A DNA stretch of 64,000 bases, taken from contig NC_080425.1 in assembly GCF_029873635.1 (NCBI RefSeq), forward strand, positions 40,985,390-41,049,389, read 5' to 3'. This DNA comes from Malania oleifera (Eukaryota; Streptophyta; Magnoliopsida; Santalales; Ximeniaceae). Below the pieces are notes generated by a model, which was given only the letters and a program-made list of their open reading frames with translations, did no database searches and was not told where the DNA came from. Shown here piece by piece: positions 11,976 to 20,839 of the stretch. The position numbers were made by a program, and so were the translations under genes. Within the stretch, counting starts at the first letter, position 1. Each line of letters starts with the position of its first letter.

Positions 11976-14900
11976 CTATACAAATTTAAAAAAAAAGTAA
12001 ATTATCAAAAAAGGAAACTGTAAATAAAATTTAATTGCTTTCGCCAGCTGCATAAAGATGATATATTCGGGACTTTTAAGCAAATGTACAGCTAGAATGA
12101 GTTTTGTTCATTGAAAATAAAGGCTAAGCAATGTTTTCAGTTCATGAACCACATAGAATAGTGAAACTGCTCTGAGGAGGTAATATTAAATGAAATATCA
12201 GAGCATTAAATGCAGGCAATTTCATCAGTCCATTGAATCAAATTTGGGAGGATCCACTTCAATCAATCCAAACAGATGAACAAGCTCACAAATGATTTTC
12301 AAAGTTCAGCACAATCCAGCACATGGCTGAAGATTCATAGATGATTGGTGCTAATGCTAGTATATGGACAAAACTACTTATCATAAGGTAAGCCTAGGTG
12401 TCTGTTGATTTTTGTCGCCATTGGAGCTCTTTTCAGAAAATGAAATCAGAAAACAAGCAAATTACTCCCCATAGCAAACAACCACACGCACTTTGGCTCA
12501 ATGAAAGCTTGGAATGCTATCCATGGCATGCTGCTTGATCATTACATAGGAAATATGATCAATGCAAATACTATCATAAGTCAACCAGGCCTGGTCATTT
12601 TTTTGGACTGGGTTGAAACATGAAAGTTAAAGAAACAATTTCAAACCTAAACAACTCTTTGGGCATGAATGGTTTCTTCATTTTAGGGACAGGTTGAGGG
12701 AATTAGAGTCAACCACACATGGCCCACTTCCAAGGTCCACTTCCAATCATAAACAATGCCTCAGTAGTCAATTTTAAGAACTGTGTCCAGAGGATACTGA
12801 AAAATGGCAACTGCATCAGTTCACCATCAAACTTTCCACCAGTGTGGGCCTCACAGTTTTGAAGAAATGAAGGCCCAATAACAGTGTCAGGATACAGACC
12901 TACGGAAAAAGTGTGTGAGCCCCCTCCCCTCCCCTCCCGCCCGCCCTCAGTTTTAAATCTCCTATTGAAAGTAATACAAATTATACTTAGGCTAACACTC
13001 ATTAAAGGTGTGCCAGCAACCCAACAAGACAAATTTTTAGTTCAAACTCTAATAATTCAACTCTAATCATGGAATATATAGGAGTATGTTCAACTTGAGT
13101 TATAAATTGAAGCAAAGCTCAAATAGCAAACTTTTGGAGATCACAAGAATAGAAAAGCAACAAGCTTCTATATTAGATTTATGCCTCCTAGGATGCCACC
13201 CACTATCACATGCAATTGTAGGTTGAAACTGCTTTATATTTTCTTTTAAATGCTAAGGCTTCAATCATGACTTTGGTCACAATTTTTTTTAACACAAAGA
13301 AAGAAACAGAAGTGGCAGGCACACCGACTTAAATAATCATATCATTGAACCAAATGATGATGATGAACAGCTCAAAGATAATATGATAGAATACACAATG
13401 ATTCTGAAATTTGCCATTCACTTTAGTACCACAGATGATGTGAGTGACATGTGAACATGTTTTAGCCAAGTTTATCTGTGAAAAACTATTGCAGATTTCA
13501 CAGATTAATAATATGAACACACACTGAAATAGAACTGGCCATCAAGGAGTATGAAATTCCTAAGGAACAAAATCCATGAACATCAAATAAGTGCGCACAA
13601 AGTAACCCTACTGATTTGCCAGTCCAAAGAAAAAGAAGCAAAGATGCAATCACATGCAAGTGCAATGAACAAACACATCAAAACTACAAGCCAGCCATTG
13701 TTGTCTAAATAGTAATAACTATGTACTAGACTGTCAGCGATGGAATGTACATACATTCACCCTGTTGTGAATCAGATGCTTAAAAACACACAGAATTGAA
13801 TCATGCTAGCTTTAAGAACTTGAAGATCTCTTTTGGAGAATAGTTGATTGCAGGCAGCTCAGTTAGTGGGTAAATCCCAATATCCATGAAAGACACAAAA
13901 AAAAATTCAAAAGAAGGATGCAAAATTTTAATCATGAACCGCATAAAGTCCCACAAATACGAACAACATAATAGGTCTGTCTAGAAGTTTGAAACAATTA
14001 GACATAAGTGTAGCAATAAACAAGCATCCTTCTTCCCACATTTCAAGGTTTATTTCCACAATCTACAACTTGAATGTTTTGGATAAATTTCTAGTTATTA
14101 ATGATGTAATTGTGAAGTGCTATCTTGCTTAGTCCTTATATATTCCAAATCGAAGAATTATTTTAATGACAATAACTTTAGTTTCTAGGCATAATTCAGG
14201 GTTGTGTACATGTTTACAGATGATTCAATATTGAATCAAGTCTGGATGATTTAACAGGGATTAGTTCCTCCCAATTTACTTCTACTGTGTTATAAAACAG
14301 AACTGTAAACAACTTTATATATATACATAAATACATACATGCTTGTATATGTATATATATATATAAGCAAACAAATGTACTTTCACATTTTTAAGTGTTC
14401 TATGTTACTTGAAGTATAGGTAATATGTGTTGTTGCACTCATGTGTCAGATTCGTTATATCCTTTATAGAGATTAGGAGTGTACAATATTTACTGAAAAA
14501 CCAAAAACCCACCCAAAACCGGACCAAAATAATTTTGGGTTCAGTTTTCAGTTTCTGTTTCGGTTCTTAAAAAATAGGAACCAGACCAAACTGAAAAACT
14601 GAAAAAAAAAAAAAAAAAAAAAAATCCTATATAAACATATATTAATTATGTCATGCAATATAATATCAAAGGGTTTAGCTAATATTAATATATTTATAAG
14701 TTCCTTAACTAATATTTTCCAGGTAATTCCCTTTTGAACAAAATAATTACATCTTCATTATCTTAGCCTTTCTTAAATTTTAATCATAGTACCCTGACGG
14801 TAATTTTTCTACAAAAACGGCTTGGGAGGCAGTGAGGAGCAGAAGTGATAATATTGTGTGGAATGACTCGTTCTGGCATTCTTTATTGCCCAGAAGAATC

Positions 14901-15798
14901 TCAATGTGTTTATGGAGAGCCTAATTTAGATGCTTGACTGTAGATGATAGAATTCAGGTCAAAGGAATATCGATAGCTTCGTCTTGTGATTGTTGCGTTC
15001 AGAGAAGTCGGGAAAATATTGATCATATTCTTTCTTTAGGCGAGTTGGCTTTAGAGGTTTGGCGTCGGGCTAGTGTGGTGTTGGGGATTCCTTTCCAATG
15101 ATCCCATCCCTAGAAAAACAGAATGGCAAATTGGTTCCACTATGCTCAAAAATCGTCTATTAAGGTATTTTAATCGGGCTGATTCCGTGTTTGATTACGT
15201 GGTGCCTCTGGAATCAAAGATATAAAACGAGAATGGACGGAGTTTATCAAAGTGCAGATTAGATGTGGAGAAGTATTCGATTCTAGGTTAGTTTTATAGC
15301 TGAGAGCACCAATTCTTTTCAAAAATTGAAGAAGTCGGACATTACGATTTTGAATGAATTTCAAATTAAGCATCAGGGAATTTGCGACAAGCCAATAAAA
15401 TTATTTTGTAGGTTAAACCTCCAGCAGGGTGGATAAAACTTAATTGTGATAAGAGTTGTAGGGGCAATCCGAGTACTTCAGGAGGTGGAGGAATTATTTG
15501 GAATTGCCATGGCATGGCAAAAACGATTTTTTCAAGTTATTTTGACAATAGTACAAATAATAGTACGGAATTAAAAGCAATCAAGGAAGAAATTCGTTTG
15601 TACAAACGTTTGCATTATTTTAATGTGATTATTGAAAGTGACTCGCGAATTGTAGTTGATTGCCTTCGAAAAGGTAAATGTATTTTGTGGTATCTTTGGG
15701 ATTTTTGGAAAGAGCTCGTGGTGGAACTAGAAGGAGTGAACGTTGTAGACACCCTATTTTTGCCCTAACCAAATAGAACAAGGGGTCCCCTCTTATTA

Positions 15799-15830
<32 letters not shown>

Positions 15831-16031
15831 TTCCTATATTATTAGTACTTTACTATTATTTTGCTTGTATTTTTATTATCATTATTATTATTATTTTTCA
15901 TTTTTATTATTATTACTAGTACTTTCACTATCTTTATTTTCTTTTTACTTTACTATAATTATTATTTTTTATTTATTTTATTGTTTGTGATATATTATTA
16001 TTATTATTATTATTATTATTACTGTTATTTG

Positions 16032-16087
<56 letters not shown>

Positions 16088-19000
16088 TGTTATTTGTTTT
16101 TTATTTATTAGTACTATTAGTATTATTTATTTTCCTACATTATTATAAGTAATTTATTATAATTATCTTATCTTTATTATTTTTATTTTTACTATAATTA
16201 TTTATTATTATTTACTATTAATAGTAGTATTATTTTTATTATTATTATCTTATGGATACTTATATTATTATGATAATTATTATTATTATTATTATTTCCT
16301 TTTTCATTATTACCATAAGAATAAAAGAAAAAAAAAAAAGAGAAAAAAAAAAATCAAAGAAGGAAGGTTGTATTAGGGTTTTCATTTTTTTTTATTATAA
16401 AGCAAAGAGGGGGCGCACACACGGCCGGGGGCGCTGCGCACAGCACAGCCACAGAGCCAAAAATACCAAAAAAAAAACCATCTTCTTCTCTTCCTTCCAC
16501 CTAGCCGGATCCCTCACCCTTCAACCTCCCTTCCTCCTCATCTCTCCATTCTCTCATTATATCCAACTCACCTCACAACCACTGCACTCGCCTCATAGCC
16601 AACTCACGGCTTGACAATACCTCCAGCAGCCTCCAGGCCCTCCTCCAACAGCCGCCAGGCTTTCCTCCATCGCCACCCTAGGCCCCTGCTCCGTTCGAAG
16701 CTCCGGCACCACTAGAAGCTCAGGGCGGCGCTGCACACACAGGGCAGCGGGGCGTACAGCAAAAAAAATAAAAAAAAACCTACTTTTGATTTTTGCTTCG
16801 CCGGCCGCTTCTTCTTCCCCTCATCTCCGGTCACCGTTCGTCAACTCCGCGCACAGGCCGCACCACCAGCACAGCATCCCAGCCGGCCCTATCTGTCTCT
16901 CCCGGCCACCACAACCGAGAGCCACTCAGCTCTGCAGCCCCTCTGCATAGCTCCGGCCACGCGGAACAACCGTCAACCACCACCGACGCCGGAAGAGTTC
17001 TCTTCGTCATCGCTGCTCAGACACCGTCGCCTCTTATCACTAGCCATTACTTCGCCCATTGCCGTCGTCGTCTCCTTCTGCTGCTGCAACTCCTATGACC
17101 CATACTCAGTTCCTGCAACCCCCTGGTGAGTTCCCTTAACCCATACACACACACACACACACACACACACATGTGGGTTCTTTTTCTCTTTTTATATTTT
17201 TTTTAGTATCATGGAGTTTTATTTTCTAAATACTTTCTTAGATGCAACTATGATTATATTTTTGTTGGGATACTGATTAATTTATTATTAGTGTTACAGG
17301 ATTTTTGTTGGGAGTTGTTTCGGTGTCTAAAGGTCGAATCTTTGTTACATTATCTTGACATATTAAATATTTTTATTGTTGTGGTTGGTATTTTACACTA
17401 ATTAATTTATTATTATTGATGCAAATTCTTGTTGGGAGTTTCAGTGTTTAAAGGTCATATCTTGGTTACATTAGATGGACATATTAAATATTTTTATTGT
17501 AAATTTATTGTTGTCGATAGTATTTTAATGGTGGATCTTTATGTTTAGGTTGTTGGTTGTTATATTGTATCATCATGGAATTTATAATATTTGTTCTTAA
17601 AAATTTTAATCTCCAAGTTCATATTTTTGGTGTTAGTATTCATGTGTGTTCATAGCTTAAAACTTTCCTATCGCTTGTATATCATTATTAGTAAGATTAT
17701 TATTACGCTGATTGTATATCACTATTAGTAACATTACTGTATTCATTAGATATTATTATCAATATTATTACTACATCGATTACATCAGTACTATTATCAC
17801 ATCGATCTTACTAGTATAAGCAATCCGTTGCTTGCATATTATTATTAGTATTATAGGTGTTGGGTTAGCAGTAAAATTATACCCTTTTGTACATGATTAT
17901 TGGTAATATTATTATATTGTTCGTGTATTAATATTAGAAACATAAGTATACTACTTGTACATTATTATTAATATTATTGTAATTATCATCATCATTAGCA
18001 TTATTATTATTTTTACTATATTCTATTTTAAAGTATACGTATATTCGATTGTGTTATTTTTAGTATTTGTATTAGCTTGTTGTTATTTTAGTATTACTAT
18101 ATTTTAGTTATTAAGTACTTTCGATTTTAATCCCTATGATTTTATTGCGGGGGGTATTAGCCTTTGGGCTTCACGTACCCTTAAGCTCTGAGAGAATATA
18201 TATGTATATATTTATTTATTTATTTATCTATTTATTTTTCATAGGTATTTATAAATTCACAAAAAGGAGCAATTTAAAGACTTATTAGATTAACTTAGGG
18301 ATAATTTCAAATTAATTAGGTACCGTTCGTAAGAACGGGCGCGTAGGGGGTGCTCGTACCTTCCCCTAGCGTAACCGAACTCCCGACCCCAACTCTGGTG
18401 ATGTAGACCGATTCTACCCCTAACGGGGTAGTAATCATGTGTTCTAACCGCACTAAAGGTTAGTGGCGACTCCGACATTCCATGTTTTTCCATGAAAATA
18501 TAAAAATTGATTTTTAGTTCGCCGCCCGGGGCACACGCGCTCCCGGGACGTCGCGACAAATGTCATGGTGATGCATCAATATAGGGAAGACAATAGTGCG
18601 GCTGATTTTCTTACTAAAGAAGGAGAAATGAGAACCAATGTAATCTACGAAAAACAGTACCTTCTACCACGTTATCTGAAATGTATTCTTCATATGGATA
18701 GGTGGGGCCTCATTTCCGTTCATCGTTAGTTCAACTCTAGATTTTTATTTGGTGTATTTTGATTTGTTTTTTGTTATATTTATGTTTTTATCTTCTTTGT
18801 TAGTTATGTTTTAGTTTTGTTATCTTGATTTGGTTGGTTGTTGGTATTATTTTTTTGGGAGGATTTTTCTATAATCTCTCTTTTGTTTATCTTGTAACCA
18901 CGTTATTCCTCCACTAAAAGTGAGGGTATATTAATAAATAAATGGAAGTGCCGCCTTCTTTTAGTAAAAAAAAAAGTGAAAGAGAGAAATGGCTTTTATA

Positions 19001-20839
19001 AAGCTGGGGAGGCTCCCCTCCCTCATGAATTTTTGAAGTGGGACAAAAAGAATAGGAGATCCGCATACATGTTGAATGGCTAAAGTCATTACTCAATGCT
19101 CCCCATCCATTCTTGTCCCACATCGGATATGGTAGATATGTGAAGTCTCTCCTTCCTCTATAAATATAGGTTGTCCCCATCTACTTGATCACCAATCTGG
19201 CTATGCTTGCATTTAGTGTGCCTAGCGCACATTAGACTCCCCATCAACTTGTTTACCAATTGAGGTAGGCTGGCCTTTAGTGCGCCTAGCCCGGATTAGA
19301 CTCCCCATGTTGCAGTTGAGTCCTTGAAATTTAAATATTTCATAGCTTGAGAGGCCAAAAATTTTAGAGGTTTCCAAATATGGGTTTATTATCCAAACCA
19401 AACCTTAGAACTGCTAAACCGATTAGAGAGAAAACTGTTGGTTCCGGTTCGGTTCGGTTTCGGTTTAGTAATTTTAGAAACCAAAATTTGCAGCTTGGTG
19501 TTTGGTATTGGCTAAGACCAAATCACACCGAATTGAATTCACCCATAATAAAGACTTCAATTTCATTTTACTGCAGGTACTAGTGCTCATAGTCATACCC
19601 CATGCTAATATGCTACATTGGGTGGATATATGGACTCCAAGATGAAGCAAAGCAATAAGCATCAAAGCTTATAAGCATAGTGCTCATGTTAACCTCATTT
19701 TCCCTTCTTTTCTTCCTATATGGTTAGGAAATTGGGTTGCACAATTCATTTAGGATAAATGAATATTTTAGTTAATTTCTTCCTGTAGACACCCAGTTAA
19801 TAGATCATCAGTTCGTTCATTTCACCTCCTTAAGAAGGCTGACTACCGAGCACAAATGACGACCAAAATTGTGATGGAGTTCTACAAATTGCGTCTGGAT
19901 GGGCCAATATTTGTTCCCAGCACAAATCAGGTCAATTGATTAAAACCCTCAATGGGCCATCCTTCAACCATGTTATTTAGATCGTTTGGAGTTGCTTAAG
20001 CCAAGCCAAGAATTTTGTCCGGGGTACCTGCTCCCCTATACTAGGATGTGAAGTTCCCATGCCGACAACAGACGATCAATCATCAATTTTTCACGGCTTT
20101 CCAAAAACGATATCATTACATGGTGGTGAACTAACCAAAAGCATGGTTGAAAGATGGTAATCCAATAGTCATATAACATAACTAATTCACGATTTAATTA
20201 AATTCCATCAAGCATAAAACAGCATCGTCTTCTGTTTCATTTAGAGTTCAGCGTATTATTCACTTCATAATCCTAGCCGGGAGAAGGAAAAAACAAAAAA
20301 AAAAATTCAATTAGGGAAACTTTTGATTAGCAGTTAAAGACGTTCTTCTTTTCTCGTTTTTGAGATGCACAATTAGTGCAATTTATTGTCCTTTAAGAGC
20401 TTAAGTAAGCGCTAAAAAGAACAATTCCTAGATATTTCATCATTTAGACAGAGCAGCATAAACAAACAAAATTCAAATTTTCCTTCATCGTTCCCCCTTA
20501 CTCTCTTGTTATCCAAGCAGCTAAACAAACGGTAACATAATTAATTCAAATTAAAAAAATCGAAACTTTTTCTAATCGAATAATCATTCGCGTGTTGAAG
20601 CAAAATTTTTGAAAGGAAATTGAAGTCATGAAAGAAAAGCGATCGATTGGTTGATCAAAGGAATTGTCGCGAGAAGGTGGAAACTCTAATTATTCAGCTT
20701 GGAATCAAGATATCAATAAAAGAGCTTCGATCAAAACGGAAAAAGAACCGTACTTTTGAGGGAGGAAATTGTTCTTGGAAAGGCAAGCTTGAATGTTGCA
20801 GGCTTCCTTCTTGCAGGGCTCTTTGCTCCGCTGAGCCAT
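11873..20839 (-). CDS. CMC4: CX9C motif-containing protein 4 (CMC4/p8-MTCP1 family), two exons
   Basis: Minus-strand host gene: exon 1 at 20839-20754, exon 2 at 11975-11873, an 8,778-bp intron between, giving 62 residues. Family members are small proteins imported into the mitochondrial intermembrane space and folded by the Mia40 disulfide relay; their exact role in plants is not settled. Seen here: MAQRSKEPCKKEAC start and cysteines at residues 9, 14, 19, 30, 40, 41, 44 and 51. These form C9-X9-C19, C30-X9-C40 and C41-X9-C51, the family signature. There is no cleavable presequence, as expected for Mia40 clients. The intron splits the lysine codon before C30 (AA|G) with GT donor and AG acceptor behind a pyrimidine-rich tract. 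Length equals the family norm and the frame is open, so the gene looks functional. The intron is crowded with transposons. Confidence 0.88.
14790..15743 (+). mobile_element. L1-type LINE with RNase H domain, left piece
   Basis: Plus-strand reading gives the C-terminal half of a plant L1 ORF2. First comes a zinc-finger-like RT tail (TAWEAVRSRS, WHSLLPRRIS, HILSLGELALEVWRR). Then comes a plant RNase H domain: WIKLNCDKSCRGNPSTSGGG (15430-15489), NNSTELKAIKEEIRLYKRLH and IIESDSRIVVDCLRKGKC. Frameshifts and stops lie between these blocks, so it is a dead 5'-truncated copy. The RNase H domain is interrupted at 15743 by the solo LTR and resumes at 18559. Confidence 0.75.
15744..18558 (+). mobile_element. 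Solo LTR, Tat/Ogre-like, inside the L1 LINE
   Basis: Starts TGTAGACACCC and ends GACGTCGCGACA, 2.8 kb with TG...CA ends. Flanking 5-mers AACGT (15739-15743) and AATGT (18559-18563) are a target duplication with one difference. The LINE RNase H reading continues across the insertion in the same strand. There is no gag or pol inside, hence solo LTR. It contains a long ATT trinucleotide region (15797-16306), a GC-rich leader-like part (16410-17100) and an (AC)n run (17150-17172). GTGGCGACTCC near its 3' end parallels the LTR at 7166-9404. Confidence 0.7.
15797..16306. repeat. ATT/TTA trinucleotide-rich region
   Basis: About 500 bp dominated by ATT triplets with interruptions; the longest clean runs are near 15991-16020 and 16038-16087. 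It lies inside the solo LTR. Confidence 0.9.
18559..18975 (+). mobile_element. L1-type LINE, right piece with 3' UTR and poly(A)
   Basis: Resumes the RNase H domain after the solo LTR: NVMVMHQYREDNSAADFLTK then YLLPRYLKCILHMDRWGL and a stop at 18727. The 3' UTR is T-rich and ends TTAATAAATAAATGG ... AGTAAAAAAAAAA near 18975. It is the 3' end of the element starting at 14790. Confidence 0.75.
18994..19166. promoter_or_regulatory. Divergent pair of snRNA-type promoters (USE + TATA)
   Basis: Plus strand: GTCCCACATCG at 19115-19125 is an exact match to the plant snRNA upstream sequence element (RTCCCACATCG), followed after 33 nt by TATAAATA (19159-19166). Minus strand: GTCCCACTTCA (19044-19034, 9 of 11) followed after 33 nt by TATAAAA (19000-18994). 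A 33-34 nt gap is the spacing known for Pol II-type plant snRNA genes; the U6/Pol III type is about 10 nt shorter. No known U-snRNA sequence follows on either side. It could instead be part of a repeat family whose terminal region carries such a promoter. Confidence 0.55.
19181..19308. repeat. 64-bp tandem duplication downstream of the USE/TATA module
   Basis: Unit 1 is 19181-19244 and unit 2 is 19245-19308. Both start CWACTTG, contain TTTAGTGYGCCTAGC and end ATTAGACTCCCCAT. It begins 14 nt after the plus-strand TATA box, where a transcript would start. Confidence 0.8.
20754..20839 (-). CDS. CMC4: CMC4 exon 1 (start exon)
   Basis: ATG is the complement of 20839-20837, and the exon encodes residues 1-28 plus two bases. 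It reads MAQRSKEPCKKEACNIQACL and then SKNNFLPQ, containing C9-X9-C19. The donor AA|GTACGG is at 20753-20752. This ATG is chosen because it gives the family's MxQ...EPC start; the upstream 5' UTR is GC-rich. Confidence 0.88.

Follow-up and report, generated by a model that had tools for sequence, protein, structure and literature searches.

The Promoter Pair and the Transposon That Carries It

In the window, i.e., the whole stretch of 64,000 nucleotides analyzed here, two promoter modules, each composed of a USE and a TATA box, point outward and form the center of a non-autonomous DNA transposon of hAT type, which occupies positions 14474-14791 and 18977-19547 and is split by a LINE (14792-18976) (Table 1). 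The earlier note, made from the letters of the window, had described an exact USE and a TATA box on the plus strand and a USE matching 9 of 11 consensus positions together with TATAAAA on the minus strand, with 33 nt between USE and TATA box on either strand and 70 nt between the two USEs, and all these elements and distances were reproduced. Homology among the genomic copies extends over about 900 bp, and the part that is missing to the left of 18977 was located at 14474-14791 by comparison of the copies. The insertion between the two parts is 4.2 kb long and is assigned to a LINE on account of an RNase H (RVT_3) piece (Pfam, E 6.7e-8) and of its terminal run of ten A at 18966-18975; a target-site duplication of the LINE was sought and not found. 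Between 15790 and 18540 the LINE reading frame is apparently broken by A/T-rich sequence, (TTA)n runs and other repeats, and a second insertion may be nested there. The window copy is an old, LINE-broken one, and no gene piece was recognized in it.

Table 1. Features of the element in the window and gene pieces captured by other copies of the family.
Feature	Position or locus	Strand	Remarks
Left target-site duplication	14466..14473	.	ATAGAGAT; 6/8 bases match 19548-19555
Left part of the hAT-type element	14474..14791	+	Terminal repeat TAGGAGTGTACA at 14474; 75% identity to L012 (346 aligned columns)
LINE inside the element	14792..18976	+	Gap between the two homologous parts; RNase H (RVT_3) piece at ~15.4-15.8 kb
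Right part of the hAT-type element	18977..19547	+	Right end CACCCATA at 19540-19547; based on genome copies
TATA box, left-facing promoter	18994-19000	-	TATAAAA; retained in the family alignment
USE, left-facing promoter	19034-19044	-	GTCCCACTTCA; 9/11 consensus match
USE, right-facing promoter	19115-19125	+	GTCCCACATCG; 11/11 consensus match
TATA box, right-facing promoter	19159-19166	+	TATAAATA
64-bp unit, two head-to-tail copies	19174..19301	+	Directly past the right-facing TATA box
Right target-site duplication	19548..19555	.	ATAAAGAC; 6/8 versus the left duplication
Captured piece: protein kinase	L055		Pfam
Captured piece: Nodulin-like	L023		Pfam
Captured piece: carbohydrate phosphorylase	L038		Pfam
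Captured piece: ribosomal S17e	L054, L057		Pfam

Upstream of one U2-like copy in the same genome (L078), a hand count gives 77 nt between the beginning of the USE and the U2 start (ATAC). This distance, when applied to the window, predicts transcription starts at about 19192 on the plus strand and about 18967 on the minus strand; since the latter falls inside the poly(A) of the LINE, the left-facing promoter of the window is probably dead. The rightward promoter is intact in sequence. As the earlier note had it, neither side runs into a known U-snRNA: at gathering score Rfam returned zero families over the whole window, and at the locus it gave four sub-threshold matches to unrelated families (E 2.8-8.6). 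A tRNA was also sought at the locus, and none was found.

A Dispersed hAT-Type Family

With 18977-19330 as a query, the genome to which the window belongs (1.49 Gb, 510 contigs) was searched, 40 of the 52 candidates being scored. At least 42 matches were obtained, the window included, the others being 68-91% identical; among the matches listed, 12 of the 13 large contigs are represented, C12 being the exception, although it does appear in the searches made with other parts of the family (567, 473 and 355 first-look candidates, 40 scored in each). The family ends are TAGGGGTGTACA...CACCCCTA, with short terminal inverted repeats (TAGGGGTGTACA / TGTACACCCCTA) and with AATTCACCCCTA as the right end of subfamily C; the first subfamily comparison had given TAGGGGTGTACAAAATTTACC and AATTCACCCCTA. 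With one mismatch allowed, the genome contains 551 occurrences of the left terminal 21-mer and 0 of its backward control.

Thirty loci (L039-L068) were picked from the 21-mer list by the 21-mer alone. An 8-bp duplication was exact in 16 of the 30 and imperfect by one mismatch in 6 and by two in 1; in the other 7 none could be found. These loci represent 28 independent insertions, because L039 and L040 go back to one insertion whose surrounding segment was duplicated, and L042 and L043 belong to a single element as its opposite ends. The former two, at about 35 kb and 85 kb of contig C1, are oppositely oriented, share an identical 8-bp duplication and mark an inverted segmental duplication close to the beginning of C1, while the latter two (C1:5635848-5637637) form a mirrored element in which both ends are left-type arms with the left module in each. 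In an earlier set both ends were in reach for 15 of 29 loci, with duplications matching at 8/8 positions in L017 and L018, at 7/8 in L013, L021 and L029, and at fewer in the rest; some loci, e.g., L010, L016 and L022, were miscut by the automatic end finder. Further reading of L060, renamed L069, revealed a complete element of 2037 bp with an exact 8-bp duplication, and two other loci read further, L070 and L071, are interrupted or truncated by Ty3-type sequence.

Duplications of 8 bp flanking such ends are typical of hAT elements. The same association is found in PMC8903248, and from its ends the family is classified here as a non-autonomous member of the hAT superfamily. Neither a transposase nor an autonomous element was recognized inside the copies read, nor was a hAT-like frame in L069. 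The genome contains at least 150 matches to hAT domains (150 scored of 1711 candidates), none of which was tied to the family ends in a by-eye comparison with 100 listed terminal repeats. On contig C3 (92888865 and 92880448) a hAT dimerization domain and one exact terminal repeat are separated by about 8.4 kb; the domain is on the outer side of the repeat and is probably unrelated to it.

Arms and Captured Cargo

The left module of A-type copies points leftward at a distance of 303-357 bp from the left end. The right USE, measured in 21 A and B copies, points rightward and begins 338-372 bp before the right end; arms are longer in subfamily C, with about 406 and 411 bp in L018. The distance between the USEs is 70 nt in the window, about 300-577 nt in those A copies having both modules that were measured, and in L069 it reaches about 1355 nt. 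The description of the pair as compact does not extend to the family, in that A-type copies with both modules hold about 0.3-1.36 kb of cargo between the promoters. Pfam recognized coding pieces in 5 of the 6 cargo fragments submitted (Table 1); judged from these domain matches, fragments of host genes lie between the ends of the family, which is what distinguishes Pack-TYPE elements.

No left module could be aligned in L023, L033 and L038, and in the B-type left arms that were aligned coding-like sequence extends into the arm and the module is gone, while in L046, L051, L052 and L061 it persists with about two mismatches. The left module, missing from subfamily B, is thus dispensable, and the right module is the constant one. 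Long terminal inverted repeats were considered as the source of the symmetry and rejected: in forced alignments of left with right arms from four elements, agreement is mainly limited to the outer 12 bp, the AACCGAACC-type repeats and the surroundings of the USE, so that simple inversion of one arm does not appear to account for the other. The 64-bp tandem units of the window (19174-19301) give cross-matches in several other C copies too.

Recurrence of the Promoter Modules

The possibility, raised in the earlier note, of a repeat family using this promoter turned out to be correct: the family is dispersed and of hAT type, and the 33-nt spacing recurs in its copies and subfamilies. Among the 30 loci L039-L068, a plus USE with at most one mismatch is followed by a TATA-like box at exactly 33 nt in 23, and the mirror minus module, with the box at 33 or 34 nt, is present in the left arm of 15; the backward pattern gave 0 and 0, and first-order resampled sequence 0.0 over 20 rounds. 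Additional plus gaps in these loci were of 34 nt in 2 (L042/L043) and of 35 nt in 9, the latter representing a second register of TATATATT boxes, and additional minus gaps were of 31 nt in 4 and 32 nt in 1. As to the remaining loci, the complete element L069 (L060 read further) carries both modules with gaps of 33 and 34, L049 and L059 carry the right module with 2 USE mismatches and gaps of 33 and 34 (hand count), and truncation or interruption by Ty3-type sequence affects L050 and L066. Defined by its sequence, an outward snRNA-class promoter is found in nearly every sampled copy with a readable right arm. Along C1 up to 83.1 Mb, an exact USE accompanies 7 of the 11 exact terminal repeats, in the same orientation and at a distance of at most 1 kb.

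The subfamily alignment comprises 30 rows from 29 distinct loci (L020 and L028 are the same), the window's copy being L009. The expectation that the spacing would be conserved among genomic copies was borne out for the minus gap, which is 33 nt in 23 of 26 rows and 32 nt in 3 (L023, L033 and L038, with unrelated minus-side sequence, and L026, which lost the minus TATA box, are set aside), but only partly for the plus gap: in these older copies it is 33 nt in only 20 of the 29 rows that retain the USE (L019 lost it) and drifts to 29-42 nt in the other 9. The minus USE has at most 2 mismatches in 26 of the 27 rows with homologous sequence.

These copies also bear on the idea that the pair is a chance coincidence of motif-like words. 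The window contains 13 USE-like sites with up to 2 mismatches versus 14.0 expected from shuffles, and, if nothing but the window is considered, the minus USE is not significant and has the quality of a chance match, as such a coincidence would have it; the modules, however, recur across copies while the controls give 0, and since the genome copies keep them the minus USE is settled as genuine. Chance is refuted by these copies, and its probability is practically negligible. USE words number 1934 in the genome versus 734 for the backward word, an excess that the family helps to explain.

Spacing, Descent and Mobility

The right-arm TATA box is TATTTAT in subfamily A, TATATAT in B and TATAAATA in C, and the spacer between USE and TATA box differs in sequence among the three, its length being 33 nt in all of them. 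In the 21 A and B right arms a single distinct gap event was counted in 51 USE-TATA columns, versus 40 in 406 downstream columns, and this one lies inside the TATA box and leaves the spacing unaltered. Pairwise identity in these arms is 0.91 for the USE, 0.80 for the spacer, 0.93 for the TATA box and 0.975 for the terminal repeat, the other bins, cargo edge excepted, having values of 0.60-0.88. In 11 full-length C copies the identity is 1.0 and 0.97 for the TATA boxes, 0.84 and 0.83 for the USEs, 0.75 and 0.79 for the spacers, 0.76 between the USEs and 0.53-0.90 in the other bins; here the TATA boxes alone stand out, the USEs not exceeding several left-arm bins (0.82-0.90) and the spacers being ordinary. 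In the 30-row C alignment the promoter columns are top-scoring, on a measure that penalizes gaps in a column. Taken together, these comparisons provide moderate, not strong, evidence that the spreading lineages kept the promoters.

The promoters could be passive passengers, i.e., a pair acquired once by an ancestral element and copied along with the arms, hardly active if at all and irrelevant to mobility. Copies that share descent share spacing as well, so that common spacing alone is no proof of function, subfamily B has lost the left module, and USE conservation in C is not above the best bins; on the other hand, the spacing is exact although the spacer sequence has changed among A, B and C, and gap events between USE and TATA box are few. 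On balance, we regard passive inheritance as unlikely, though well worth keeping in mind. It appears fairly probable, instead, that the modules are inherited, outward Pol II snRNA-type promoters of Pack-hAT elements, which lineages have kept because the promoters aid mobility. The family, its ends, duplications and cargo, and the recurrence of the spacing in three right-arm subfamilies are direct observations, and the window's pair forms the center of one old member of this non-autonomous hAT-type family, which is Pack-TYPE in its habit. The arms of the fullest copies extend from the terminal repeat to a USE farther inside, each of them holding an outward USE-33-TATA promoter of the plant Pol II snRNA class, and enclose variable cargo that consists partly of captured gene fragments; the equal spacing on both strands is inherited with this architecture. 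The snRNA factors and Pol II would use these promoters, with transcripts running outward through the arms, and arm transcription or factor binding would help mobility by providing open, transposase-accessible ends to the lineages that kept them. A further step, that the family has made the snRNA transcription machinery a part of its mobility, so that outward promoters keep the ends transcribed and open to the transposase and gene capture in A-type elements stays inside the USEs, is speculative and rather doubtful at present.

Polymerase Class and Possible Products

The rule invoked in the earlier note, that the gap is 33-34 nt in Pol II snRNA genes and shorter in U6, agrees with the readable genes of this genome, where it is 34 nt for U2 and about 24 nt for U6. 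Three of ten U2-like upstream regions (L074, L078, L079) contain a USE and a TATA box at 34 nt, L081 shares this layout except for CATAAA as its box, L075 shows a USE-like word but no TATA box, and five have no USE; among eight U6 upstream regions, five (L084-L087, L089) have a USE and TTAATAA at 24 nt (hand count), two a USE without a clear box, and one no USE. According to PMC9845283, USE and TATA box are four helical turns apart in Pol II genes and one turn less in U6 and U3. With a gap of 33-34 nt, compared with 34 for U2 and about 24 for U6, the transposon modules fall in the Pol II class, and their combination of a USE (RTCCCACATCG) with a TATA box at 33-34 nt is, in sequence terms, that of a Pol II snRNA-type promoter. 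A Pol III type-3 (U6 class) promoter, for which a gap of about 24 nt is expected, was rejected.

As to the products, plant snRNA genes carry a 3' box, CAN3-10AGTNNAA, as given in PMC545797 and PMC5079582. A scan of 21 A and B right arms detected this box in one (L069) and in none of the other 20. A plant U-snRNA gene was rejected for want of this box and of any known snRNA downstream (Rfam), and a conserved small RNA past the right TATA box was rejected too, since the predicted folds of the 21 arms disagree. The proposal of a compact bidirectional promoter for unrecognized small RNAs is, as worded, unsupported, given the missing box, the discordant folds and the cargo that separates the two promoters in A-type copies. 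A true pair of genes for capped, stable small RNAs, mobilized by a transposon, would fit the Pol II snRNA spacing and the block with a short hairpin that many A and B arms share after the TATA box; yet this hairpin is broken in several A copies, and with the box missing in 20 of 21 arms, discordant folds and no Rfam match such genes are very improbable. The missing 3' box and the disagreeing folds would, rather, favor a role for transcription of the arms as such over a role for one particular RNA.

Relation to Known Systems

Taken singly, hAT elements, gene capture of the Pack-TYPE kind and snRNA-type promoters are all well known. A DNA transposon needs no RNA template, and non-autonomous DNA transposons are usually held to retain only the sequence required by the transposase; a precisely spaced snRNA-type promoter kept through several subfamilies and captures would point to a role for transcription of the arms. 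The closest likeness is with Pack-TYPE hAT elements (Pack-hAT), which are non-autonomous and have hAT-type ends, 8-bp duplications and captured gene fragments (PMC8903248), but whose description, in the part of that paper available, includes neither promoter nor snRNA, whereas the present family carries outward USE-33-TATA modules in one or both arms. USE, TATA box and Pol II-class spacing are shared with plant Pol II U-snRNA promoters, as presented in PMC545797, PMC5079582 and PMC9845283; unlike those genes, the family has no snRNA, mostly lacks the 3' box and is dispersed by transposition. USE promoters outside the classical snRNA set have been described for plant telomerase RNA (PMC12133305) and for the interface-induced miRNA loci of Cuscuta campestris (PMC10226582), the latter being reported as Pol III-consistent and driving miRNA hairpins, in contrast to the Pol II spacing found here, with no miRNA seen. 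A mobile-element promoter complexed with TBP and the snRNA factor SNAP50 is known from the trypanosomatid Pr77 (PMC8190864), but Pr77 belongs to protist non-LTR retroelements and the present family is a plant DNA transposon. No description of a plant DNA transposon with a plant snRNA-type promoter was found in searches of an open-access library.

The interest of the locus resides in the family, with its hundreds of hAT-type terminal repeats. If the promoters do aid mobility, hundreds of insertions would scatter outward snRNA-class promoters beside host genes. The family is also a warning that a USE and a TATA box alone are not evidence of a small-RNA gene. Exact USE words occur, in addition, at four loci (L003-L006) within LTR- or TRIM-looking, not hAT, sequence. 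Plant LTR and TRIM elements, too, have USE-like words close to their start, and these four loci presumably resemble them.
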